64,000 bases of DNA from an uncultured Pseudomonadota bacterium. Its GTDB lineage: Bacteria > Myxococcota_A > UBA796 > SXON01. The translations under genes and the position numbers were made by a program. The stretch covers positions 1 through 64,000 of the forward strand of contig CAISIK010000192.1 in assembly GCA_903885375.1 (NCBI GenBank), given 5' to 3'. Positions 21,654 to 36,235 of this stretch are shown one piece after another. The notes under the pieces are model-generated. The model did no database searches. It saw only the letters and a program-made list of their open reading frames with translations, and was not told the origin of the DNA. Positions within the stretch are counted from its first letter, which is position 1. Each line of letters starts with the position of its first letter.

Positions 21654-23474
21654 CTACCGGTAGCCCTCGGCCTGCAGCGAGAACAGGCGGGCGTACCTGC
21701 CATCGAGCGCCATCAACGAGGTGTGGTCGCCATCCTCCACCATCCTTCCCCCGTGAAGCACGATGATGCGGTCGGCCATGCGCACCGTGCTGAAGCGGTG
21801 CGAGATGAGCACGGCGATCTGGTCGTGGGTGAGCTCGCGCACCCGATCGAAGATCTGCGCCTCGGCCTCCGCGTCCATGGCGCTGGTGGGCTCGTCGAAC
21901 ACGAGCACGCGGGCGCCCTGACGCATGAACGCGCGGGCGAGCGCCACCTTCTGCCACTGTCCGATGGACAGCTCCCGTCCGTCCTTGAACCACTTGCCGA
22001 GCTGGCTCTTGAAGCCGGCCGGCATCTCGTCGATGAACGGTGTGGCCATCCCCTTGTCGGCGGCCACACGTTGCCCGGCTTCATCCTCCAGCCGCTCGCG
22101 GTCGCCCACCCCGATGTTCTCGCCCACCGTGAGCTGGTACTTCACGAAGTCCTGGAAGATGACGCCGAGGCGCTCGCGCAGCGCGTGCGGGTGCCACTCG
22201 CGGAGGTCCAGCCCCTCCAGCATCACCTGCCCCGAGGTCGGGGTGTAGAGCCCCGTCAGGAGCTTGATCAGCGTGGTTTTTCCGCTCCCGTTGTGGCCGA
22301 CGATCGCGAGCCGCGTGCCGCTCGGCACGTGCAGGGTGAGGGACTCCACCGCGGCTGCGCTCGCGCCCGGGTAGGTGAAGCTCACGTTGTCGAAACGCAC
22401 GCCGTCGTCGGGGAGGGGGCCGCTCCGGGCGGTGCCGGCCGGGCGGACGATCTTCATCGCGAGGAAGGCTTCGAGATCGGCCATGTAGAGGCTGTCCTCG
22501 TACACGCCGCCGATGGCCTGGAGGCTTGCCCCGAGGGCGGCCTGCCCCTGCTTGAAGACCAGCAGGTACATCGTCATCCCGCCGAGCGTGATGCTCCCGG
22601 TGATGGCCGAGGCCGCGATCCACCCGTAAGCGCCGTACAGCGCCAGCGTGGAGAGCGCACCGAGGAGCAATCCCCAGGCGCCCCGACGGAGCACGAGCGC
22701 CCGCTCCTCGGTGAAGATCTTGTGGAATATCCGGTCGTACCGCTCCACGAGGTCGGGGCCGATCCCGAGCAGCTTCACCTCCTTCGCGTGGTCCTCCCGG
22801 GCCACGACCACCTCGAGGTAGTTCTGCATGCGCACGTCGGCGCTGCGCCAGGAGAACAGGGCGTGGGATTGGCCGGCGAAACGGGTTTCCGCCAAGAAGG
22901 AGGGCAGCGCGGCGAGGGTGAGGCCCAGCACGGCGAGGGGGGAGAACGCCACGAGGATGGCGCCCTGGCTCACGAGGCTCACGACGTTCTGCACCAGCCC
23001 GAGCGCCTGGCGCACGAGCCCGAGCGGCCGCCGTGACGCCTCCCTGCGGGCGCGGGTCATGCGGTCGTAGGTGTCGCTGTCCTCGAAGTCGGGGAGCTCG
23101 AGCTCCAGCGCCTTCTTCAGGATCATGACGTTCACGGTGTTCCCGAGCACGGCACGCATCAGCGTGTCGCACATCTCCGCGCCGCGGCGCATGGCGGACA
23201 GAAGGATGATCAACCCGCCTTCGATGGCCACCCACCGCAGGGCGGCTTGCCGATCGGCTGCTGCGCCCGTCCGGGTTGCGAGGAGCACGCCATCCACGAT
23301 CTGCTTGCCCACCCAGGCCAGCCCCGCGGGGACGAGGCCGGATGCCAACGTCAGCGCGGCGAGCGTGAGAAACAGCACGGGGCTCGTATTCCAAACGAGC
23401 CCGGCCGCCATGCGGGTGAGGCGGGCCACCTGACGGGCGCGCGCCCAGGCGCCCGACTTCGGAGGGCTCACCAC
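21654..23474 (-). CDS. ABC exporter, fused permease and ATPase
   Basis: 606 residues: a six-helix ABC transporter permease domain (about 20-330) followed by an ATPase domain. Walker A GHNGSGKT is at residues 393-400, the signature is LSIGQWQKVALARA, Walker B VLVFDEPTSAMD, and the switch region ends in ISHRFS. It is a type IV exporter half-transporter that would act as a homodimer. The substrate cannot be read from sequence. The GTG start is one base from the selD stop, so it appears to be transcribed with bioA and selD. Confidence 0.9.
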   Translation of the reverse strand: MVSPPKSGAWARARQVARLTRMAAGLVWNTSPVLFLTLAALTLASGLVPAGLAWVGKQIVDGVLLATRTGAAADRQAALRWVAIEGGLIILLSAMRRGAEMCDTLMRAVLGNTVNVMILKKALELELPDFEDSDTYDRMTRARREASRRPLGLVRQALGLVQNVVSLVSQGAILVAFSPLAVLGLTLAALPSFLAETRFAGQSHALFSWRSADVRMQNYLEVVVAREDHAKEVKLLGIGPDLVERYDRIFHKIFTEERALVLRRGAWGLLLGALSTLALYGAYGWIAASAITGSITLGGMTMYLLVFKQGQAALGASLQAIGGVYEDSLYMADLEAFLAMKIVRPAGTARSGPLPDDGVRFDNVSFTYPGASAAAVESLTLHVPSGTRLAIVGHNGSGKTTLIKLLTGLYTPTSGQVMLEGLDLREWHPHALRERLGVIFQDFVKYQLTVGENIGVGDRERLEDEAGQRVAADKGMATPFIDEMPAGFKSQLGKWFKDGRELSIGQWQKVALARAFMRQGARVLVFDEPTSAMDAEAEAQIFDRVRELTHDQIAVLISHRFSTVRMADRIIVLHGGRMVEDGDHTSLMALDGRYARLFSLQAEGYR

Positions 23475-23475
23475 G

Positions 23476-24537
23476 TCAATGGGAGCGACCGGCGTGGATA
23501 TGCATCCGCGGGCCGCTCGAACGTTCGCGGAGGCGGCCGATCACGGCGTTGGCGAGGGCACCCTTGCGCTCCAGGTCCTCGAGCACGGCCGTGAGCCGAT
23601 CGTCGGGGACGGCGAGGATGAGGCCGCCGGAGGTCTGCGGGTCGGCGAGGATCGGCTTCGCGAGCGCCGGGAGGTCCGGCGACCAAACGGCGTTCTTTCC
23701 GTAGTGCGCGAGGTTGCGGCCGGTCGCGCCGGGAAAGACGCCCGCCTCGATGTGCTCGCCCACACCGGGGAGCAACGGGAGGCTCCCGAACCACAGGTCG
23801 ACGTCGAGGTCCGCGCCGACGGCCATCTCGTGCACGTGACCGAGGACGCCGAACCCCGTCACGTCGGTGGCGCAGCGGAGCCCGTGGGCCTGCGCAACCT
23901 CCGAAGGGATGCGGTTGAGGAAGGTCGCGACCCGCACGAACTCGGCGTACTGCTCGGGCGTGATGACCTCTCGTTTCACGGCGCTGGCGAGCGACCCGCT
24001 GCCCACGGGCTTGGTGAGCACCAGCCAATCCCCGGCGCGCCCGCGGTCGTTGCGGAGGATGCGATCGGGGTGCACGAGCCCGGTGACCGAGAGCCCGAAC
24101 TTCATCTCCTCATCGTCGATGCTGTGGCCGCCCGCGATGGGAATACCGGCTTCGGCACACACCTCTGCGCCGCCCGCGAGCACTTCGCCCATCACCTCCG
24201 GGGCGACCTTCTTCAGCGGCAGGCCCACGATGGCGAGCGCGAGGATGGGCCGCCCGCCCATGGCGTACACATCCGAGATGCTGTTGGCCGCGGCGATGCG
24301 CCCGTAGTCCCGCGGGTCGTCCACCACCGGCATGAAGAAGTCGAGCGTCTGCACGATCGCCTGGTCCGCACTGATCCGGTAGACGGCGGCATCGTCGCTC
24401 GTCTGGATCCCCACGAGCAGCTCGGGGGGCACGGTGCGTGGCAATCGGGCCAGCATGCGTTCCAGGTCCGCCGGACCCAGCTTGCATCCTCAGCCACCAC
24501 CATGCGAATACTGGGTGAGGCGGATGCGATCGGGCAT
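23476..24537 (-). CDS. selD: Selenide, water dikinase, a selenoprotein (Sec at codon 16)
   Basis: 353 residues if the in-frame TGA at 24492-24490 is read as selenocysteine. SelD makes selenophosphate from selenide and ATP. The start is MPDRIRLTQYSHGGG, then U16, then GCK: the active-site loop seen in SelD as HGGG(C/U)GCK, with the catalytic Lys19 three residues later. Downstream are the usual AIRS-type motifs: QTSDDAAVYRI, NSISDVYAMGGRP, GHSIDDEEMKFG and LVLTKPVGSG. Without recoding, only residues 28 onward would be made and the active site lost. A hairpin follows the TGA. It lies 9 bases after bioA. The selA, selB and tRNA-Sec genes must be elsewhere. Confidence 0.95.
24465..24489 (-). promoter_or_regulatory. 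Putative bacterial SECIS hairpin of selD
   Basis: Directly after the in-frame TGA, GGTCC pairs perfectly with GGACC around a GGC loop; the apex is 18-20 bases downstream of the codon, the usual distance for a bacterial SECIS element that binds SelB. The stem is short, so further weak pairs probably extend it. Assigned by position and structure; SelB binding is inferred. Confidence 0.55.
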
Positions 24538-24546
24538 GGAATGGCC

Positions 24547-25887
24547 CTATCGCGGGAGCCCCGACTCGTCCGCCGCCGGGGAGGCGCCGAGCACGTCCAC
24601 AAGGGCGGCCTCCACCGCGCGGGTGAGCGTGTGGAGCTCGGGCGCCTCCATCACCAGCGGCGGCATGAGCATCACGGTGTCGCCGAGGTTGCGCACGATG
24701 GCGCCGTGCTTCCGGGCGGCCAGCGAGACCCGGTGCCCCACCCGCGCCTCGGCGGGAAAGCCGGAGCCGTCGGGCCCGCGGAGCACCAGGCCGCCCATCA
24801 TCCCAAGGTGACGCCGCTCGTGGATGCAGGGGTGGGCGACTGCATCGAGCGCCCGGCGGAGCTCGGCGGCGCGCCCGGGGAGGCGCTCGACGAGCCGCGT
24901 TTCTTCGATGACGTCGAGCGTGGCGAGGGCGGCCGCCACGGCAAGCGGGTTCCCCGTGTAGGTGTGGCCGTGGAAGAAGGTGCGGTATTCCGGGTAGGGG
25001 CCGCGGAAGTGGTCGTAGACGGCGTTCGTGGTCAGCGTGGCGGCGAGGGGGAGGTATCCGCCCGTGATGGCCTTCGCGAGGCACAGGAAGTCCGGCCGCA
25101 CCGATACCTGGTCGGCGGCGAAGAGCGTCCCGAGGCGGCCGAAGCCCGTGGCCACCTCGTCGAACACCACGTAGGCGCCGGCGGCTCGCGCGAGGGTGCC
25201 CAGCGCGTCGAGGAAGGCCACGCTGTGCCGGCGGAGGCCCGCCGCGCCTTGCACCAACGGCTCCACCACGAGGGCCGCCAGCTCGTGGCCATGCTGGGCG
25301 AAGAGCTCGCGCGCGCGTTCGAGGCAGGCCGCCTCCTCGGCGGCTTCGGCCCGCTCGGGCGAAGGCAGCCGCACCGCTTCGAAGAGAAGTGGGCGGTATA
25401 CGGCATGAAACAGGTCGATCCCGCCGAGTGATACACTTCCGACTGTATCACCGTGGTAGGCCTCGTTGAGCGCGGCAAAGCGGGTCCGCTGGCGGTCCCC
25501 CCGCTGCTGGCAGGCCTGGAAGGCCATCTTCAGCGCCACCTCCACCGCCGTCGAACCACTGTCGCTGTAGAACACGCGGTCGAGCCCGGTGAGCGCGCAG
25601 AGCCGCTCGGCGTGTTCCACCGCGCCGGGGTGGGTGAGGCCGAGCAGGGTGGTGTGGGCGATACGGTCGAGCTGCGCGCGCACGGCGGCGTCGAGCTTCG
25701 GGTGGCGGTGCCCGAGGATGTTGCACCACAATGACGATGTGCCGTCCAGATAGCGCCGCCCCTCGGTGTCGATGAGCCAGACGCCCTCTCCCCGTTCGAT
25801 CACCCGGTTCTGCTCCGCGCGCTCCCACTCGTCGGCCTGGGTGAAGGGGTGCCAGAGGTGGGCATAGTCGCGAGAAAGCCAGCGCAT
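24547..25887 (-). CDS. bioA: Adenosylmethionine-8-amino-7-oxononanoate aminotransferase
   Basis: 446 residues, a class III PLP aminotransferase. The start LSRDYAHLWHPFTQADEW is characteristic of BioA. Other signatures are DGTSSLWCNILGHRHP, FYSDSGSTAVEVALKMA, ALNEAYHGDTVGS, VFDEVATGFGRLG and AKAITGGYLPLAATL, which contains the PLP lysine. It transfers an amino group from S-adenosylmethionine to form 7,8-diaminopelargonate in biotin synthesis. No other bio gene is adjacent. It is followed closely by selD and the ABC exporter, and is divergent from sat. Confidence 0.93.
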   Translation of the reverse strand: MRWLSRDYAHLWHPFTQADEWERAEQNRVIERGEGVWLIDTEGRRYLDGTSSLWCNILGHRHPKLDAAVRAQLDRIAHTTLLGLTHPGAVEHAERLCALTGLDRVFYSDSGSTAVEVALKMAFQACQQRGDRQRTRFAALNEAYHGDTVGSVSLGGIDLFHAVYRPLLFEAVRLPSPERAEAAEEAACLERARELFAQHGHELAALVVEPLVQGAAGLRRHSVAFLDALGTLARAAGAYVVFDEVATGFGRLGTLFAADQVSVRPDFLCLAKAITGGYLPLAATLTTNAVYDHFRGPYPEYRTFFHGHTYTGNPLAVAAALATLDVIEETRLVERLPGRAAELRRALDAVAHPCIHERRHLGMMGGLVLRGPDGSGFPAEARVGHRVSLAARKHGAIVRNLGDTVMLMPPLVMEAPELHTLTRAVEAALVDVLGASPAADESGLPR

Positions 25888-27225: not shown

Positions 27226-27248
27226 CCTGCCGGCCTCAGGCCGGCAGG
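27226..27248. terminator. Perfect 10-bp hairpin between sat and hcrB
   Basis: CCTGCCGGCC and GGCCGGCAGG pair perfectly around a three-base loop, TCA, which is the hcrB stop codon read on the other strand. It begins 12 bases after the sat stop. No T tract follows in either direction. Probably a bidirectional end signal for two convergent transcripts. Confidence 0.55.
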
Positions 27249-28156
27249 CTGGCCAGCGCGCGCGCCACCTCGACCCGCAGCATCCGCTTCCGCCACGTGG
27301 AGGCCTGCTGGTGCGTGGGGAGGGGCTGCACCGCCTTGTGAACGGCGTCCGCCAGCGCTTCGCGCGTGGGCGCGGCGACCCGGATGGGCTGGGGGGCCAC
27401 GGCCGAGATCACGGCTTCCCAACCCTCCGGGGTAGGGGCCACGGCGGTGAGGAGGAGGCCGTAGTCGATGGCAGCGCGCTGACGCAGCTTGCGGAAGGCC
27501 ACGGCGCGCTGGGGGGCCGGTACCTCCACGCGCACCAGCACTGCGCCGGGGGGGCAGCGCGGGCCTTCCCGACCATCCTCGGGGTACAGCTCGCCTACCG
27601 CGATGGGAAGTTCGCCGTTGGGGGTGGCGAAGACCGCGGTGGCGCCGAGCAGCATCAGCACCGGCACCGTATCGGCGCTGTGGGCGGCGTAGCAGCCGGC
27701 TCCACGCGGAGCCACATGGCAGAGGGTGCCCTCACACTTGAGGCAGCCGCCCAGCGCGGCCCGCCAGCCGGAGGGCTGGTTGTAATACATGCACCGTGTA
27801 TCGAGCATCAGGTTGCCACCCAGCGTGGCCATGCCCTGGATGGTGGGCGTGGCCACGCTGCCTAGCGCGAGGGCCAACGACGGAAAGTGCGTGCGCACCT
27901 CGGCGTGGCGCGCCAGCTCGCGCAGGGAGAGGGCGGCCCCGAGGCTCAGCGAGTGGTCGGCTCCCACCCGGAGCGTGCGGAGCTCCGGCACCCGCCGCGT
28001 GGACACGAGGGTGCCGGGGCGGAAGATCCGGTGCTTCATCGAGGGGAGCAGGTCGGTACCACCGGCGACGAGCCGGGCGCCCGGCTCGGCTGCGAGGCGA
28101 ACCAGGTCGGGGAGCCGGTCGGGCGCCTCCCAGGAGAATCGGGGGAGTGGGAGCAT
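27236..28156 (-). CDS. hcrB: 4-hydroxybenzoyl-CoA reductase, FAD and [4Fe-4S] subunit HcrB
   Basis: 306 residues. The FAD-binding domain of the molybdenum hydroxylase family is seen from ARLVAGGTDLLPSM and MATLGGNLMLDTRC. Residues about 122-155 form the insertion that sets HcrB apart from xanthine dehydrogenase subunits, with Cys122, Cys138, Cys146 and Cys155 able to bind an extra [4Fe-4S] cluster; a fifth, Cys141, lies between. From memory this is the spacing in the Thauera enzyme. The cluster reverses electron flow so that low-potential ferredoxin can drive reductive removal of the phenolic hydroxyl. The ATG overlaps the hcrA stop by one base. Last gene of hcrC-hcrA-hcrB. Confidence 0.93.
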   Translation of the reverse strand: MLPLPRFSWEAPDRLPDLVRLAAEPGARLVAGGTDLLPSMKHRIFRPGTLVSTRRVPELRTLRVGADHSLSLGAALSLRELARHAEVRTHFPSLALALGSVATPTIQGMATLGGNLMLDTRCMYYNQPSGWRAALGGCLKCEGTLCHVAPRGAGCYAAHSADTVPVLMLLGATAVFATPNGELPIAVGELYPEDGREGPRCPPGAVLVRVEVPAPQRAVAFRKLRQRAAIDYGLLLTAVAPTPEGWEAVISAVAPQPIRVAAPTREALADAVHKAVQPLPTHQQASTWRKRMLRVEVARALASLPA

Positions 28157-30489
28157 CAGGGGGGGCCTCCGCGCGCCCGGGCATCGAGGGCCCGGAGCAC
28201 CCGTTCGGGCGTGAACGGCGGCTGGTGCAACCACACGCCGCTGGCATCGAAGATCGCGTTGGCGATGGCGGGAACCGTGCTCAACTGGGGGCCTTCACCC
28301 GCCTCCTTCGCGCCCAGCGGACCCTCCGGATCGTGCGATTCGATCGCGAAGACGGTGACCTCGGGGCTCTCATGCACCGTTGGCAGCTTGTATTCGAGGA
28401 TGCTGGGCGCCCGGATGAGCCCACCGGGGAGGTAGCGCTGCTCCTCGCAGAGGGCCTCGCCCACGCCCATGTACACGCAGCCTTCGATCTGGCCCTCCAC
28501 CACCGCGAGGTTCAGCACCCGGCCGCAGTCATGGGCCACCCAGATGCGCTCCACCGCCACCATGCCCGTCTCCTCGTCCACCACCACCTCCGCGACCTGC
28601 GCGGTGAAGGAGTAGGCCGGGGAGGGGCCCACCGACTGGCGGCGGAACCGACTGCCGATCTTCGGCGGGGTGTAGCCACCTGCGTTCACGAGGGGGCCAC
28701 TCTTCTCCTCGGCCAGCCAGACGGCATCCACCCATGACACATCGGATGTGTCGGTACCCACCCGAGGCCCATCACCGCGATCGGCGTGGCCCGGGCGACC
28801 GAACGACACCTCCGCGGGATCGCAGCCGAGCTTTTCGGCCACCGCCGCCACGATCCGCTCCCGGAGCGGGTTCACCGCGAGCAGGGCGGCGTTGCCCGCC
28901 ATGAAGGTGACCCGGCTGGAGTAGCTGCCGAGGTCCACGGGGGTGAGCGACGTGTCCCCCTCCAGCACACGGATGTCGGCGGGGTGCAGGCCGAGCCGGT
29001 GGGCCACGAGGCCGGCGAGCATGTGGTTGCTGCCCTGGCCCACGTCGGCCGTGCCGCTGTAGACCACCACCTCGCCCGACCGATCGATCTTGATCTGGAC
29101 CGTGCTGTGCGGCATCTCGTTCTGGTAGATGGGGTGCAGGGCGCCGCACATGTACGCGCTCGTGGCGATGCCCAGGCCGCGACCGGGCCCCAGCTTGCCA
29201 CGCCGTTCAGTGTACCCGCTCGCCTGGACCACGGCATCGATGCAGGCCTGGATGCCTACCGAGGTGACGCGGAGCCCGTTGCAGGTTTCGCTGTTCGCTT
29301 CGACACAGTTGTCGCGGCGCATGGCGGCCGGATCGAGGCCGAGGCGACCCGCGGCGCGGTCGAGCAGGACCTCCAGCGCGAAGCGTGGCTGGATGGCGCC
29401 GTGCCCACGCTTCGGCCCGCACGGCGGCTTGTTGGTGTAAAGGCGGTGCGACTCGAACCGGTAGTTCTCAAGCTGGTAGGGAAGTGGCATGAAGACGCCC
29501 AGGTAGTAGCTCGTGACCACGCCGTAGCTGGCGTAGGCGCCGCCATCGGCCCAGGCCTTGAAGTCCACCGCGGTGATGCGGCCCTCCGCCGAGAACCCCA
29601 TCTTGAGCCACATCCGGGTGGGGTGCCGCCCTCGGTGGGCCAGGAAGACCTCCTCGCGCTCGAGCACGATTCGCACCGGTCGGCCGAGCTTGCGGGCCAG
29701 GTGGGACGCGCAGATGTCCGAGCAGAAGGGGTCGCACTTTCCGCCGTAGCCGGCACCCACCGCGGGCTTGATCAGCCGCACGTCCTGGTCGCGGAGGCCC
29801 AGCACGCGGGCGACATCGCGGTGAACGTAGTGGGGGTTCTGGGTGCTGCTCCACAACGTGAGCTTCCCATCAGGCTCCACGCGCGCCAGCGCCGCGTGGC
29901 TCTCCAACGCGACGTGCGTGCTGCCCGGGTAGTCGAAGTTCTCTTCAAGCACCACCGCCGCCTCGGCGAAGCCCGCATCCACGTTGCCGTAGTTCTGGTG
30001 CACCCGGCGGAGGATGTTGCTGGGCTTGCGCGCGTATTCGTGGATGGTGGGGCGGGCCGGATCGAGCGCGGCCTCGATGGTGAGGATCGCCTCGATGTCC
30101 TCGTACTCCACTCGCACGGCCTCGCAGGCACGGTGGGCGGTTTCGGGGTCGAGCGCGGCGATACATACCACCGGCTCGCCGATGTATCGAACCTTCCCGA
30201 CCGCGAGGGCCGTTTCATCCTGGGCGACCGGGATGACGCCGTAGCGACGCGGCAGTTCTTCCCCGACACAATGCCCCACCACGCCGGGGATGGCCAGGGC
30301 CGCATCGAGGTGGATGCGGACGATGCGCGCGTGGGCGCGGGTGGAACGCACGAACTTGGCGTGCACCATCCGCGGCAGCTTCAGGTCGGCGACGAAGAGG
30401 GCGGCGCCGCTGATGCGCTCGCGGCCATCGATCTTGGCGCCGTAGCTGCCGATGGGGTCGGGAACAGGGGTGGGCTGGCGCACGCTCAC
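28156..30489 (-). CDS. hcrA: 4-hydroxybenzoyl-CoA reductase, molybdenum subunit HcrA
   Basis: 777 residues from a GTG that overlaps the hcrC stop (GTGA). It is the large molybdopterin-binding subunit: N-terminal ab hammerhead domain (DGRERISGAALFVADLKLP), then the cofactor-binding part with AGYGGKCDPFCSDICASHLA, HRGRHPTRMWLKMGF, NKPPCGPKRGHG, GTADVGQGSNHM and TPVDLGSYSSRVTFMAGNAAL, and the final LGAKEAGEGPQLSTVPAI. These segments match 4-hydroxybenzoyl-CoA reductase more closely than xanthine or CO dehydrogenases. It reduces 4-hydroxybenzoyl-CoA to benzoyl-CoA. A much longer upstream reading in the same frame is a shadow of hcrC. Confidence 0.93.
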   Translation of the reverse strand: MSVRQPTPVPDPIGSYGAKIDGRERISGAALFVADLKLPRMVHAKFVRSTRAHARIVRIHLDAALAIPGVVGHCVGEELPRRYGVIPVAQDETALAVGKVRYIGEPVVCIAALDPETAHRACEAVRVEYEDIEAILTIEAALDPARPTIHEYARKPSNILRRVHQNYGNVDAGFAEAAVVLEENFDYPGSTHVALESHAALARVEPDGKLTLWSSTQNPHYVHRDVARVLGLRDQDVRLIKPAVGAGYGGKCDPFCSDICASHLARKLGRPVRIVLEREEVFLAHRGRHPTRMWLKMGFSAEGRITAVDFKAWADGGAYASYGVVTSYYLGVFMPLPYQLENYRFESHRLYTNKPPCGPKRGHGAIQPRFALEVLLDRAAGRLGLDPAAMRRDNCVEANSETCNGLRVTSVGIQACIDAVVQASGYTERRGKLGPGRGLGIATSAYMCGALHPIYQNEMPHSTVQIKIDRSGEVVVYSGTADVGQGSNHMLAGLVAHRLGLHPADIRVLEGDTSLTPVDLGSYSSRVTFMAGNAALLAVNPLRERIVAAVAEKLGCDPAEVSFGRPGHADRGDGPRVGTDTSDVSWVDAVWLAEEKSGPLVNAGGYTPPKIGSRFRRQSVGPSPAYSFTAQVAEVVVDEETGMVAVERIWVAHDCGRVLNLAVVEGQIEGCVYMGVGEALCEEQRYLPGGLIRAPSILEYKLPTVHESPEVTVFAIESHDPEGPLGAKEAGEGPQLSTVPAIANAIFDASGVWLHQPPFTPERVLRALDARARGGPP

Positions 30490-30968
30490 GCGGGGTTCCT
30501 CATGCGCGCCTGGGCATCCCGTGCGGCCGCGAGGATTTTCACATAGCCGGTACAACGGCAGATATTGCTCCCCAACGCGTGCCGGAGCGAGGCTTCGTCG
30601 GCCTCGGGTTCTTCGGTGAAGAGGTGGGTGAGGGTCATCACGAACCCCGGGGTGCAGTAGCCGCACTGGGCGGCAACATGGTGGTCGAACGCCGCCTGGA
30701 TGGCGCTGGGCTGCCCGCCCACTGCCACGCCCTCGATGGTGTCCACGTGCTCGCCGGCACAATCGGCCGCCACCGTGATGCACGCCAGCCGGGGGAGGCC
30801 GTTCACCAGTACGGTGCAGGCCCCGCAGTCGCCCACGTCGCAGCCGTGTTTGGTGCCGGTCAGGCCGAGGTCCTCGCGCAGGAGCTCGAGGAGGGTGCGC
30901 GAGGCGGGAACGAGCGCCCGGGCGGGTTCGCCGTTCACGACGAGGTGCAGCACGAGCTCGTTCGACAT
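30486..30968 (-). CDS. hcrC: 4-hydroxybenzoyl-CoA reductase, [2Fe-2S] subunit HcrC
   Basis: 160 residues, the normal size. The plant-type ferredoxin cluster lies in TKHGCDVGDCGACTVLVNG plus a later Cys, and the second [2Fe-2S] cluster in QCGYCTPGFVM and NICRCTGY. It passes electrons between HcrB and the molybdenum centre of HcrA. The ATG was chosen to give the standard N-terminus (SNELVLHLVVNGEP); upstream frame extension is spurious. First gene of the hcr operon, divergent from the FHA-domain gene. No good ribosome site precedes the ATG. Confidence 0.93.
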   Translation of the reverse strand: MSNELVLHLVVNGEPARALVPASRTLLELLREDLGLTGTKHGCDVGDCGACTVLVNGLPRLACITVAADCAGEHVDTIEGVAVGGQPSAIQAAFDHHVAAQCGYCTPGFVMTLTHLFTEEPEADEASLRHALGSNICRCTGYVKILAAARDAQARMRNPA

Positions 30969-31056
30969 GCGTGCAACTAACGCGGCGGGGGCGCCGGCAC
31001 CCCGGCCGCTCGTCGCGGCGGACGCGTCGGTTACGCCGACGAAACAGGGAGGCAAC

Positions 31057-31950
31057 TTGGTCGTACGTCCGCAGGCGTGGCTGTCGGTGGGAGGAGCCGA
31101 TCCGGTGGCAATCTTCCCGGGGGGACTCATCGGGCGGTTGAACAGCGCCGAGGTCCGGGTGGCCGACCCGCGGGTACCCGAGGCCGCGGGGCTCGTTTCG
31201 CTTCGTGGTCGGGAGTTGTACCTCCTGAGCCTGCGGAACGCGCTGCTCGTGGACGGTGCGCCCGAGGACGACCTCCTGCTCACCGCCGGCCTGCGCTTTT
31301 CCCTCGCCGGTGCGGTGGAGGTGGAGGTGACGCGGGTGGACCTCCCCGCGCGTGTGCTCGCGCTCCGAATGCCCGGCCAGCTCCGGGAGCTCTGCTCCTC
31401 GGTCTACAGTTTTGTCGCCACGCCCGAGTTTGACATCGTCCCGGGGTTTCTCGACGATTCCCCCGGTCGCGTCTGGAGCACCGCGGAGGGTTGGATGATC
31501 GACCTCGGTCAGGGGCCGCGCGCCCTGAAGCTGGGGCAGTCCTTCGTGGTGGGGGAGCACCCGGTGGAGGTGACCGACGCGGCCGTGGAGGAGCTGGCCG
31601 TGCTCGCCACCCAAGCGCGCGTGCGTCCGCTGGTCATCACGGTGCGCACCACGTCGGCCGTGGTGTCCAGCGTGGGGCGAAGCCCACTGCCCATCGATGG
31701 CCTGCCGGCGGAGCTGCTCACCGAGCTCGCCCTCGCCGGTCAGCCGCTGGCGTGGGAACCGCTGGCGCAGGGCCTGTGGGGAAAGCGGCAGGGCAACACG
31801 CTGCGGATGAGCTGGGACCGCGCCCTTCGCCGCCTGCGTGAGCGGCTGCGCGAGGGAGGGGTGCGCGAGAACCTCATCCGCGCCGACGGGCGGGGCAACT
31901 TCGAGCTCTTCCTCCTCCCCGGCGACCGGGTGGTGGACGAGTCGGGCTAA
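31057..31950 (+). CDS. FHA-like domain protein with a C-terminal winged-helix-like region
   Basis: 297 residues from a TTG preceded by GGAGG four bases upstream. The first 95 residues (AEVRVADPRVPEAAGLVSLRG, then LYLLSLRNALLVDG) resemble an FHA phosphopeptide-binding domain. The C-terminal 80 residues (ELALAGQPLAWEPLAQGLWG, then RMSWDRALRRLRERLREGG and NFELFLLPGDRVV) have the helix-strand pattern of an OmpR-type winged helix, including a recognition-like basic helix. I infer a signalling or regulatory protein responding to Ser/Thr phosphorylation; the domains are suggested by pattern, not a database match. It sits between the hcr and box operons and is divergent from hcrC. Confidence 0.65.
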   Translation: MVVRPQAWLSVGGADPVAIFPGGLIGRLNSAEVRVADPRVPEAAGLVSLRGRELYLLSLRNALLVDGAPEDDLLLTAGLRFSLAGAVEVEVTRVDLPARVLALRMPGQLRELCSSVYSFVATPEFDIVPGFLDDSPGRVWSTAEGWMIDLGQGPRALKLGQSFVVGEHPVEVTDAAVEELAVLATQARVRPLVITVRTTSAVVSSVGRSPLPIDGLPAELLTELALAGQPLAWEPLAQGLWGKRQGNTLRMSWDRALRRLRERLREGGVRENLIRADGRGNFELFLLPGDRVVDESG

Positions 31951-32240
31951 TCGCGCGCCAGCGCCTGACGGGCCTCGGCGGGGGAGACCTCACGGCCATC
32001 CAGCCAGACACGGTCCGCGGCCGCGTCCAGAAGCTCCACGGGTAGCATTCGACGATGGCACCACAGGAGCAACCGGAGGACCTCGCCATCCCGGCCGGTG
32101 CGCTCGATGCGCAGGCGGGCGCCGGGCGAGCTCACCACGGCGCGTTCGACCCGCTTGCGGGAGGCGGACACCGCCACCCGCCGCGGATCGTCGGCGGGGC
32201 CGAGATCGAGGAGCCGATCGAGCCGGGACCGCAGGCCCAA
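31947..32240 (-). CDS. Hypothetical small basic protein downstream of boxB
   Basis: 97 residues from a TTG 4 bases after the boxB stop; a GTG about 19 codons later is an alternative. Composition is Arg- and Leu-rich with plausible alternating strands (RVAVSASRKRVERAVVSSPG, RLRIERTG, EVLRLLLWCHRRML) and a charged tail. No family recognised. Its TAG overlaps the TAA of the convergent FHA gene. Close spacing to boxB suggests it belongs to the box transcript. Reality as a protein is likely but unproven, and the start is weak. Confidence 0.45.
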   Translation of the reverse strand: MGLRSRLDRLLDLGPADDPRRVAVSASRKRVERAVVSSPGARLRIERTGRDGEVLRLLLWCHRRMLPVELLDAAADRVWLDGREVSPAEARQALARD

Positions 32241-32244
32241 CGAG

Positions 32245-33669
32245 TCAGACCGCCGGCGGGCGGACGTACTCGAACTCCACGGGGTTGCCGTGGATGCCAC
32301 GCCGGGGAGCGGCGATCCAGTTCGCCATCTGGCCGGGGTCCTCCACACGGTGCATCAGGCTCGCGACGTAGGCGCGGTCCTCATCGGAGGGGAGCCATTC
32401 CGACAGGTGGCGCGCGTGCTCCGTGGCGTCCATCAACTGGCCCTGCGGGTTGAAGGGCAGGTTGGCGTAGATGCCCTGCCGGCGGAAGAAGCGGCTCGAG
32501 GGCAGCGTGATGCGCTCGGACACGCCCTCCTCTTCGAGCGCCTGGTTCCAGCGGCGCACCACGCGCTCGGTGTCCTTCATGTAGGCATCGCGGAGCACTT
32601 CGTTCATGGCATTGCGGAGGGGCACGTCCCTTTCCGTAAGCTTGCCCTGCTCCACCACGGCCATCTTGTGCCATTGGTTCAGCGCGGTGTGCTCCTCGTA
32701 GTCCTTGGCCTCCGCCCAGCGCCCCTTGAGGCCGGCGCCGAAGAAGTCGGCGGCGTTGGTGGAGATCTCGGAACCGAAGAGGTCGAGGCTGTAGCAGTAC
32801 CAGTAGTTGATCCAGCGCTGCGTCATCGCGATGGGGATGCCGCCCTGCGCGCGGGCATCGCCGTTGCGGTCGACCTTGGCGAGCTGCGCGCCGCGGCGGA
32901 GCACACGTTCCACGCCGGTTTCACCCACGCTGAGGTGGTGCGCTTCTTCCGTGAGCATGAAGCGGCAGGTGCGCGAAAGCGGATCGAACCCCGACTCGGC
33001 GAGCGCGCCGAGCTGGTACTTCCCATCGCGGTCGGTGAAGCAGGTGAAACAGAAGAAGGTGAGCCAGTCCGGGCACGGCTGGTTGAACGCATCGAGGATG
33101 CGGGGCTTGTCGGCATCACCCGCCCGGCGGGCGAGCAGGTCGTCGGCCTCGTCGCGGCCATCCTTTCCGAAGTGGGCGTGCAGCAGATACACCATGGCCC
33201 ACAGGTGCCGGCCTTCTTCGACGTTCACCTGGAAGAGGTTGCGCATGTCGTAGACGGACGGCGCGGTGAGGCCGAGCCAACGCTGCTGCTCCACGCTCGC
33301 CGGCTCGGTGTCGGCCTGCGTCACGATGATGCGGCGAAGCACGTTGCGGTACTCGCCAGGGACTTCCTGCCACACCGGCTCGCCCATGTGGTCGCCGAAG
33401 GGGATCCGGCGGTCGGCCACGGGATCGGCGAGGAAGATGCCCCAGCGATACTCCGGCATGCGGACGTAGCCGAACTGCGCCCAGCCGCCGGGCTCGGTGC
33501 TGACGGCGGTTCGCAGGTACACGTCGTGGAGCTGGAAGCTCTCCGGACCCATCTGGTTCCACCAGTCGAGGTACGCGGGCTGCCACTTCTCGAGGGCGCG
33601 CTGAAGGCGCTTGTCGGAGTCGAGGTTGACGTTGTTGGGGATCAGGCTCTGGTAGTCGATGTCGGCCAT
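32245..33669 (-). CDS. boxB: Benzoyl-CoA 2,3-epoxidase oxygenase subunit BoxB
   Basis: 474 residues, the usual BoxB length. BoxB is a soluble diiron oxygenase that, with the reductase BoxA, converts benzoyl-CoA to 2,3-epoxybenzoyl-CoA using molecular oxygen. Typical segments are the start DIDYQSLIPNNVNLDSD, KWQPAYLDWW, the ligand helices QVNVEEGRHLWAMVYLL (E and ExxH) and MLTEEAHHLSVGETG, and QRWINYWYCYSLDLFG. The Shine-Dalgarno region and ATG fit the family start. It follows boxC by 25 bases. boxA is not present nearby, so the electron donor is encoded elsewhere or replaced. Confidence 0.95.
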   Translation of the reverse strand: MADIDYQSLIPNNVNLDSDKRLQRALEKWQPAYLDWWNQMGPESFQLHDVYLRTAVSTEPGGWAQFGYVRMPEYRWGIFLADPVADRRIPFGDHMGEPVWQEVPGEYRNVLRRIIVTQADTEPASVEQQRWLGLTAPSVYDMRNLFQVNVEEGRHLWAMVYLLHAHFGKDGRDEADDLLARRAGDADKPRILDAFNQPCPDWLTFFCFTCFTDRDGKYQLGALAESGFDPLSRTCRFMLTEEAHHLSVGETGVERVLRRGAQLAKVDRNGDARAQGGIPIAMTQRWINYWYCYSLDLFGSEISTNAADFFGAGLKGRWAEAKDYEEHTALNQWHKMAVVEQGKLTERDVPLRNAMNEVLRDAYMKDTERVVRRWNQALEEEGVSERITLPSSRFFRRQGIYANLPFNPQGQLMDATEHARHLSEWLPSDEDRAYVASLMHRVEDPGQMANWIAAPRRGIHGNPVEFEYVRPPAV

Positions 33670-33694
33670 GACGAGGCTCCCGGTGGAGGTGGGT

Positions 33695-35323
33695 TCAGGT
33701 GCGCTTGTAGTCGTAGACAGGGCGCTCGGGGGCGCCGAACATCTTGAGGGCTCCGCGTTCGCCAACGGCGTTGGGGCGCTGGAAGATCCAGTTCTGCCAG
33801 GCGGTGAGCCGCCCGTAGATCTTGTTGTCCATGGACTCCGGGCCGCCGAAGCGGAGGTTCTGCTCCATGCCGGTGAGGGCATCGGGCGAGAGGCTGGCGC
33901 GCTCCTCGATGGCGATGCGCACCTCGTCTTCGTAGTCGATCTCGTCGGGAGTCAGGGTGACGAGGCCGAGCTCGCTCGCCATGTCAGCATCGATCTCGCC
34001 GCCACGTGCGAGCACGCGGCCGGGCGCCGAAGCATCCCCCGGGTAGCGCGCCTGGAGGCGGGTGAGACCCGAGTGCATCGGGAAGAGACCGCCCGATACA
34101 TCCGTGACACACACGGCGTTATCCCCATCGTCATCCTCCAGCATGTAGCTACGATCCGCCGCGAGGACGATCTCGAACAGCGAGCCGGCGAAGGCGTTGC
34201 CCGGCTCGACGAGCGCGAAGATCGACTTGGCCATGTTGTCGAGGCGGCGGAGCACGCGCGCCTGGAAGCGCTGCACTTCGCGGCCGAACCAGCCCTGGCC
34301 GGCGAGCGCGGTGTCGGCCTCCACCACGGCCTTGCGGCTGCCGGTGGTCTTGAACACGAGGAGGCCGATGTCGAGGTTGTTCACCCGGAGCCGGAGCAGC
34401 GCATCATCGAGCTCGCGCCAGGCGCGGAGCGACCAGGTGGCGCTGGTGGTGGTGGGTGCGCTGTCGGGCGCGCGCATCGTGATGTGGGCGATGCGGGCCT
34501 CGCGGTCGAACCGCACGTTCACGTAGCGGTAGTCGAGGTTGTCCGCGTCGGTCCACGTGGGCTCGAGGGGCTCGAGCGGCACCGGCCGCGCGTCGGGCGC
34601 CATGGGATTCGCCGCGGCAACGGCGGTCGCGCGCTCATCGACCGAGGCCTGCCACTTGCTCCGGGGGAAGGCGGCATCGACAAACCCGAACTTCACGGCA
34701 TCGCGTGCCTTGAAGCCTTCCGCCTTGGTGCAGAAGACGTCGGCCATGTCGCGCCGCACCTTCCGCTTGTCGGTGAGCCGGGTGAGGCCGCCGGTGCCCG
34801 GAAGCACGCCGAGCAGCGGAACCTCGGGCAGGGAAACGGCCGAGTTCCCATCGTCGATCAAGTAGATCTCCTTGCAGGCCATCGCGAGCTCGTAGCCCCC
34901 GCCGGAGGCCGTGCCGTTGAGGGCGGCGATGAACACCGCACCGTCCTGGGCGGTCGCCTCCTCGATGCCGCTGCGCGTCTCGTTGGTGAACTTGCAGAAG
35001 TTCACCTTGAACGCATGGCTCGACTGGGCGAGCATGCGGATGTTGGCGCCCGCGCAGAAGATCTTGTCGTAGCCGCCGGTGAGGACCACCGCGCGCACGC
35101 CGGGGTGTTCGAAACGAAGGCGCTGCACCGCGTCGGCCAGCTCCACATCCACCCCGAGGTCGTAGCTGTTCAGCTTCAGCTCGTACTTGCCGGGCCACAT
35201 TCCGCCATCTTCCTGCACCTTCATGGTGAGGGTAGCCACGGCACCTTTCACGGCGAGCGACCAGTGAACGTACCGGGAGGGGTGGGTTTCGAAGTTCACG
35301 GTGGGGTACGCGATCTCAGCCAT
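33695..35323 (-). CDS. boxC: 2,3-epoxybenzoyl-CoA dihydrolase BoxC
   Basis: 542 residues, normal for BoxC, a member of the enoyl-CoA hydratase (crotonase) superfamily with a long divergent C-terminal half. The N-terminal half has the crotonase pattern: VVLTGGYDKIFCAGANIRML and FIAALNGTASGGGYELAMACK. The C-terminal half includes AHITMRAPDSAP and FALVEPGNAFAGSLFEIVLAADRSY. It opens the epoxide ring by adding two waters, releasing formate and giving a semialdehyde-CoA. It is the first gene of boxC-boxB and starts just after a strong promoter divergent from boxR. Confidence 0.95.
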   Translation of the reverse strand: MAEIAYPTVNFETHPSRYVHWSLAVKGAVATLTMKVQEDGGMWPGKYELKLNSYDLGVDVELADAVQRLRFEHPGVRAVVLTGGYDKIFCAGANIRMLAQSSHAFKVNFCKFTNETRSGIEEATAQDGAVFIAALNGTASGGGYELAMACKEIYLIDDGNSAVSLPEVPLLGVLPGTGGLTRLTDKRKVRRDMADVFCTKAEGFKARDAVKFGFVDAAFPRSKWQASVDERATAVAAANPMAPDARPVPLEPLEPTWTDADNLDYRYVNVRFDREARIAHITMRAPDSAPTTTSATWSLRAWRELDDALLRLRVNNLDIGLLVFKTTGSRKAVVEADTALAGQGWFGREVQRFQARVLRRLDNMAKSIFALVEPGNAFAGSLFEIVLAADRSYMLEDDDGDNAVCVTDVSGGLFPMHSGLTRLQARYPGDASAPGRVLARGGEIDADMASELGLVTLTPDEIDYEDEVRIAIEERASLSPDALTGMEQNLRFGGPESMDNKIYGRLTAWQNWIFQRPNAVGERGALKMFGAPERPVYDYKRT

Positions 35324-35346
35324 GGGTCCTGGGTCCGGGGTGCGGT

Positions 35347-35375
35347 AGTATACTGCACGTTCTATTCTTGCTCAA
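35347..35375 (-). promoter_or_regulatory. Sigma-70 promoter of boxC-boxB
   Basis: Minus strand: -35 TTGAGC, 17-base spacer, -10 TATACT, ending 23 bases before the boxC ATG, so a leader of about 17 bases carrying AGGA is expected. The -10 lies in the palindrome AGTATACT next to a TGCA. Such TGCA elements are reported in BoxR/BzdR operators, so repression here by BoxR and relief by benzoyl-CoA is a reasonable inference. Confidence 0.65.
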
Positions 35376-35397
35376 GCGGCGATGTGTGCAATATACT
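35368..35397 (+). promoter_or_regulatory. Sigma-70 promoter of boxR
   Basis: Plus strand: -35 TTGCTC, 18-base spacer, -10 TATACT, overlapping the boxC promoter back to back. The sequence TATACTGC occurs at both -10 regions (35349 and 35392), 43 bases apart or about four helical turns, and a TGCA lies just before the second. This fits one BoxR dimer or tetramer controlling both directions. Confidence 0.55.
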
Positions 35398-35428
35398 GCC
35401 TCACATGAGCGTGCTGTCGGGAGACGAG

Positions 35429-36235
35429 ATGTTGCGTCGCGTGGGCGTGCGGGTGCGGGCGCTCCGGGAGCGCAGGGGCCTGACCCAGGCGGCGCTTTCC
35501 CGGCGTTCGGGCGTGAGCCTGCGCTTCCTCGCCGACGTGGAACGAGGTGGGGCGAACGCGAGCCTGCTCCGCATGGCCGAGCTGGCCGTGGCTCTGGAGG
35601 TGTCGCTGGCCGAGCTTGTGGCCACGGCGGGCCCCGTGCCCGACTCGGTGGCCCGGTTCGCACTCTTGAGCCCCGACGAGCGGGCCGAACGCCTCGGTCG
35701 GCCCCGTCAGGCGCTCGTGTTCGTGGGCATGCGGGGCGCGGGCAAATCCACGGTGGGTCGGGCGGTGGCCACGCGGATGGGCGCCCCGTTCGTGGAGGTG
35801 GACGAGGCGATCGAAGCCCGGGCGATGATGCCGTTGGGCACGCTGTTTTCCGAGCACGGCGTGGAGCGGTACCGGGCACTCGAGTCGATGGTGGTGGAGG
35901 AGCTCCTCGGAGGCGGCGATCGAGTGGTGCTCGCCACCGGCGGGTCGCTCGTTACGCAGCCGGAGCTGTGGGCGCTCGTGCGGCGCCAGTCGCGAACGGT
36001 GTGGCTGCGCGCCCGCCCGGAATCCCACCTGCGCCGGGTGGAGGCCCAGGGAGATTCGCGCCCCACGCACGGTCGGGCGGATGCGCTGGCGGAGCTCCGG
36101 CGGCTGCTCGCCGCGCGCGAACCCGCCTACGCCCAGGCCGATCTCACGATCGACACCGACCGTCTCGATCGACTGGAGACCGTGTGGGCGGTGCTCGGCT
36201 GGCTGGGAGAAGGGGAGGCGGGCGGGGAAGCCTGA
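35429..36235 (+). CDS. boxR: BoxR/BzdR-type regulator: XRE helix-turn-helix fused to a shikimate-kinase-like domain
   Basis: 268 residues. The N-terminal XRE domain (RVRALRERRGLTQAALSRRSG, then VSLRFLADVERGGANASLL) is joined to a shikimate-kinase-like domain with Walker A GMRGAGKST and the following DEAIEARAMMP and LATGGSLVT. In BoxR and BzdR this domain binds benzoyl-CoA as the inducer. The position divergent from boxC supports the assignment. The chosen ATG has GGGAG five bases upstream; an ATG eight codons earlier would require a leaderless transcript from the mapped -10. A plain shikimate kinase is ruled out by the helix-turn-helix domain. Confidence 0.93.
   Translation: MLRRVGVRVRALRERRGLTQAALSRRSGVSLRFLADVERGGANASLLRMAELAVALEVSLAELVATAGPVPDSVARFALLSPDERAERLGRPRQALVFVGMRGAGKSTVGRAVATRMGAPFVEVDEAIEARAMMPLGTLFSEHGVERYRALESMVVEELLGGGDRVVLATGGSLVTQPELWALVRRQSRTVWLRARPESHLRRVEAQGDSRPTHGRADALAELRRLLAAREPAYAQADLTIDTDRLDRLETVWAVLGWLGEGEAGGEA

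Follow-up and report, generated by a model that had tools for sequence, protein, structure and literature searches.

The selD gene on the minus strand of the window, the whole 64,000-nt stretch of DNA analysed here, almost certainly encodes a selenocysteine (Sec)-containing selenophosphate synthetase (SelD/SPS2) in which UGA at codon 16 would specify Sec, as judged from sequence comparisons. The complete coding sequence, with 353 codons plus the stop, occupies positions 23476..24537, as deduced from reading of the frame, family profiles and alignment with the SelD structure 3u0o. From the start ATG (24537-24535) the frame reads MPDRIRLTQYSHGGG, followed by a TGA codon (24492-24490) and then by GCKLGPADLERML..., ending with a stop codon at 23478-23476 and containing no other in-frame TGA. 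The original prediction had proposed this UGA at codon 16 without indicating a strand, and had anticipated that automatic annotation would start past it and lose the active site. Indeed, the standard-code ORF starts at the ATG at 24456 and comprises 326 aa, leaving out the 15 codons 5′ of the UGA (24493..24537) and the N-terminal active-site loop. Correcting the annotation matters, since otherwise a key selenium enzyme is deprived of its active site.

When the TGA was read through, the 353-aa product gave full-length matches to the NCBIfam models PRK00943 (423.7 bits) and TIGR00476 (389.5 bits), exceeding in both cases the model cut-offs (299 and 125 bits, respectively). Alignment with 3u0o (E-value 3.6e-92) paired residue 16, corresponding to the UGA, with a Cys, and matched GGG-U-GCK of the deduced product to GAGCGCK of the structure (GCGCK motif), the neighbouring Lys also being present. 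This agrees with the prediction of a SelD active-site loop with Sec in place of Cys. Gene bioA (24547..25887, minus strand; TIGR00508, 480 bits) ends 9 nt before the start of selD, and both genes are adjacent in eight genomes of the genus, including the source genome. Just past the end of selD begins a gene for an ABC transporter (21654..23474, minus strand; PF00005), which we consider a neighbour only and which did not adjoin selD in any of the relatives checked.

The assignment of Sec to codon 16 is based on the presence of TGA in relatives and of Cys in homologues. The codon is TGA in the source genome and in the 10 others of the genus (11 of 11), and also in G010, from another genus, and in G055 and G060-G062, from other families of the order; Sec-SelD forms are present in more distant relatives too. 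In relatives G011 and G007 the codon is TGC, and SelD shows 64 % and 61 % identity, respectively, to these Cys forms. In a quick tree of the sampled SelD sequences, the distribution of Sec and Cys forms needs four changes, whose direction is not established. A search for selB in G007 did not retrieve any match at E ≤ 1e-40, and G011 retains this gene; the combination of a Cys-SelD with selB in G011 may correspond to a Sec/Cys swap that kept the machinery. Additionally, MAG contigs deposited in GenBank under the title Klebsiella pneumoniae match stretches of G018 and G011 letter for letter, and these titles look wrong.

The 15 codons preceding the UGA are probably translated, because changes there are almost exclusively synonymous: among 10 genomes of the genus, the amino acid varies at codon 5 alone (I/L) and most degenerate codons vary synonymously. 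Past the UGA, codons 18–25 are frozen at the DNA level wherever the amino acid is fixed. Comparison of 11 Sec-SelD genes revealed a single codon at six of the seven invariant residues in codons 17–26, as opposed to 13 of 162 elsewhere in the gene, with no random draw out of 20000 giving a mean as high; the same positions did not show an excess of frozen codons in 76 Cys-SelD genes (P 0.21). Codon 21 is invariably GGT in the 11 Sec genes, and GGT accounts for 9 % of the Gly codons of the window. Codon 14 (24496-24498), two codons 5′ of the UGA, is also GGT in 11 of 11 close Sec genes though this codon is rare here, which may reflect a further RNA constraint 5′ of the UGA.

Downstream of the UGA there is a putative SECIS hairpin, CUGGGUCC-GGC-GGACCUGG (24462..24480, minus strand; -9.7 kcal/mol), identified by its fold, the freezing of codons and compensatory change; its loop begins 17 nt past the UGA, and it includes the GGTCC/GGACC pairing originally predicted at SECIS distance. 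A possible lower stem, UGC/GCA, would extend the structure to 24456..24486 (-13.5 kcal/mol), and is lost in some relatives. The limits published for bacterial SECIS elements (bSECIS) are a loop of 3–9 nt, a stem of 4–16 bp, a distance of 16–37 nt from the UGA, a G within the first two loop positions and an MFE of at most -7.5 kcal/mol (PMC13188914); the selD hairpin, with a loop of 3 nt that starts with G and a stem of 8 bp, lies inside all of them. The bSECIS model is matched at 9.8 % of the coding positions sampled in the window, whose DNA is 71 % GC, and hairpins as good as that of selD occur at 3.7 % of them. In a shuffle test within its 61-nt context the hairpin stood out little (z -1.5), and we therefore took conservation as evidence instead. 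By itself the hairpin is weak evidence, and its conservation in relatives raises it above chance. In 15 of 15 Sec genes, the first loop nucleotide is G and the second is G or U. In G010 the outer C-G pair is replaced by G-C through the changes L20V and E26Q, and in G060 a G.U pair became A-U and a U.G pair became U-A. Pairing is imperfect in a few of the 15 genes, with one outer pair broken in two of them and the innermost pair in another one. In the Cys relatives G011 and G007, the hairpin is broken by loss of three to four of its eight pairs. Selection at the DNA level thus adds to the agreement with the published model in the search for a bacterial SECIS that had been advised. We did not find any Rfam family matching this hairpin. 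An alternative mini-hairpin, GCUG-GGUC-CGGC, was discarded, because its loop, at 12 nt past the UGA, is closer than the published limits allow and because its pairing is disrupted in G060, a genome in which most of the longer stem is preserved.

The source genome (6.0 Mb in 224 contigs, about 90 % complete) contains selA (465 bits, contig C27), selB (297 bits, contig C128; with both the SelB-wing_2 and SelB-wing_3 Pfam domains) and a tRNA-Sec (65 bits, contig C175; reported by ARAGORN as SeC with anticodon tca), all three on separate contigs. These are the genes whose presence had been put forward as a check of the implied Sec system, and the lineage very probably has a working one, with eight candidate selenoproteins so far. 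Gene ybbB (YbbB/SelU), for the selenouridine trait, had no match in 22 genomes of the family, the E. coli positive control being detected; therefore, this trait is not the reason for the presence of selD here.

Besides selD, the candidates are seven genes of the source genome (L175 2102, G000:C5; L182 720, C219; L183 908, C76; L184 758 and 1528, C207; L185 569, C126; L186 671, C27), coding for a formate dehydrogenase alpha subunit, five AhpC/TSA-type proteins, two of them in tandem, and a SelW-like protein. In all seven the UGA occupies the position of a redox cysteine, or the active site in the case of formate dehydrogenase, and is close to a hairpin whose loop is of the GG or GU type. The formate dehydrogenase contains NNIDSCNRT-U-HAPSV, and its GGUCU loop is situated 18 nt past the UGA in a SECIS that differs in sequence from the selD hairpin. 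In the AhpC/TSA-type proteins the UGA takes the place of the first redox cysteine (PWUPVC, YGUTKEGC, FWUGSC in two of them, and FGULFC), and the SelW-like protein has the motif CVSU. Including selD, each of the eight UGAs precedes a stem with a loop beginning 17–21 nt away, and seven of the eight hairpins pass the energy limit, that of the SelW-like gene falling short at -6.3. Genus-level conservation of the UGA was examined, among these seven, for formate dehydrogenase alone, and two relatives have a UGA in this gene, which on inspection occupies the same residue. When the window was scanned by codon usage for other read-through genes, only ordinary gene ends were retrieved; since selD was missed as well, this result does not argue against their presence.

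The TGA is one base from TGC or TGT and the assembly is fragmented into 224 contigs, as would suit a Cys selD altered by a sequencing error or by a lesion in a pseudogene. However, its conservation, which extends throughout the genus and to further genera and families of the order, refutes such an origin, and the remainder of the frame is uninterrupted, with the score of a full SelD, making an error or lesion extremely improbable and dispelling the concern, raised with the original prediction, that the codon was in fact TGC or TGT. Translation from the ATG at 24456, as obtained by standard ORF calling, would yield a short SelD that lacks the active-site loop and has some other role; we give hardly any credence to this product, since the codons 5′ of the UGA evolve as coding sequence, those flanking it make up the SelD active-site loop, and the hairpin is under selection.

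The UGA could also be read as another amino acid, by a genome-wide change of code or by readthrough without selenium, and non-Sec readthrough of an SPS UGA has been proposed for insect SPS1 (PMC4561486). Nevertheless, TGA ends 37 of the 50 called genes in the window and, being still the usual stop, speaks against a change of code; moreover, the Sec machinery is complete in this genome, and Cys replaces the residue in relatives, as expected for Sec. The probability of this alternative is thus next to nil, and we favour Sec at codon 16.

With Sec at codon 16, and by comparison with the family, the ribosome would reach the UGA and SelB carrying Sec-tRNA-Sec would bind the downstream hairpin, so that Sec would be inserted in place of termination. 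As a part of the N-terminal Se-binding loop, Sec would play the role of the catalytic Cys in the conversion of selenide and ATP to selenophosphate, a catalysis presumed from the other members of the family. Because selenophosphate would feed SelA, SelD would require its own product for its own synthesis. It is conceivable, although rather unlikely, that the UGA not only provides a better catalyst but also serves as a selenium switch: low selenium would then cause early termination of SelD and turn off the selenoproteome, and with enough selenium SelD would be self-maintaining. If so, the Cys/Sec swaps in close relatives would mark switched versus constant use of selenium.

Sec-SelD is already a known selenoprotein family, occurring in many bacteria. 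The Sec-containing form represents 19 % of the SelD genes in a reference set of 223 genomes (PMC4561486), and is included in listed selenoproteomes such as those of Anaeromyxobacter and Geobacter (PMC1794560). The gene described here is a well-supported further member, which resembles bacterial Sec-SelD (SPS2) in having Sec at the Cys position of the N-terminal loop and a SECIS just 3′ of the UGA; it does not differ in kind, and what is new is the lineage and the occurrence of Sec and Cys forms within one family. The enzyme family and the loop are shared with Cys SelD (E. coli type, 3u0o; G011 and G007), whereas G011 and G007 have TGC and no SECIS hairpin and the gene in the window has TGA and the hairpin. 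The existence of Cys and Sec selD genes in close relatives, without and with the hairpin, provides a natural comparison for the retention or loss of SECIS elements.

Elsewhere in the window, positions 27236-36235 contain a block for aromatic degradation, including a three-subunit molybdenum enzyme similar to 4-hydroxybenzoyl-CoA reductase, boxB and boxC, together with a regulator that has a shikimate-kinase-like domain and resembles that of anaerobic benzoate catabolism.
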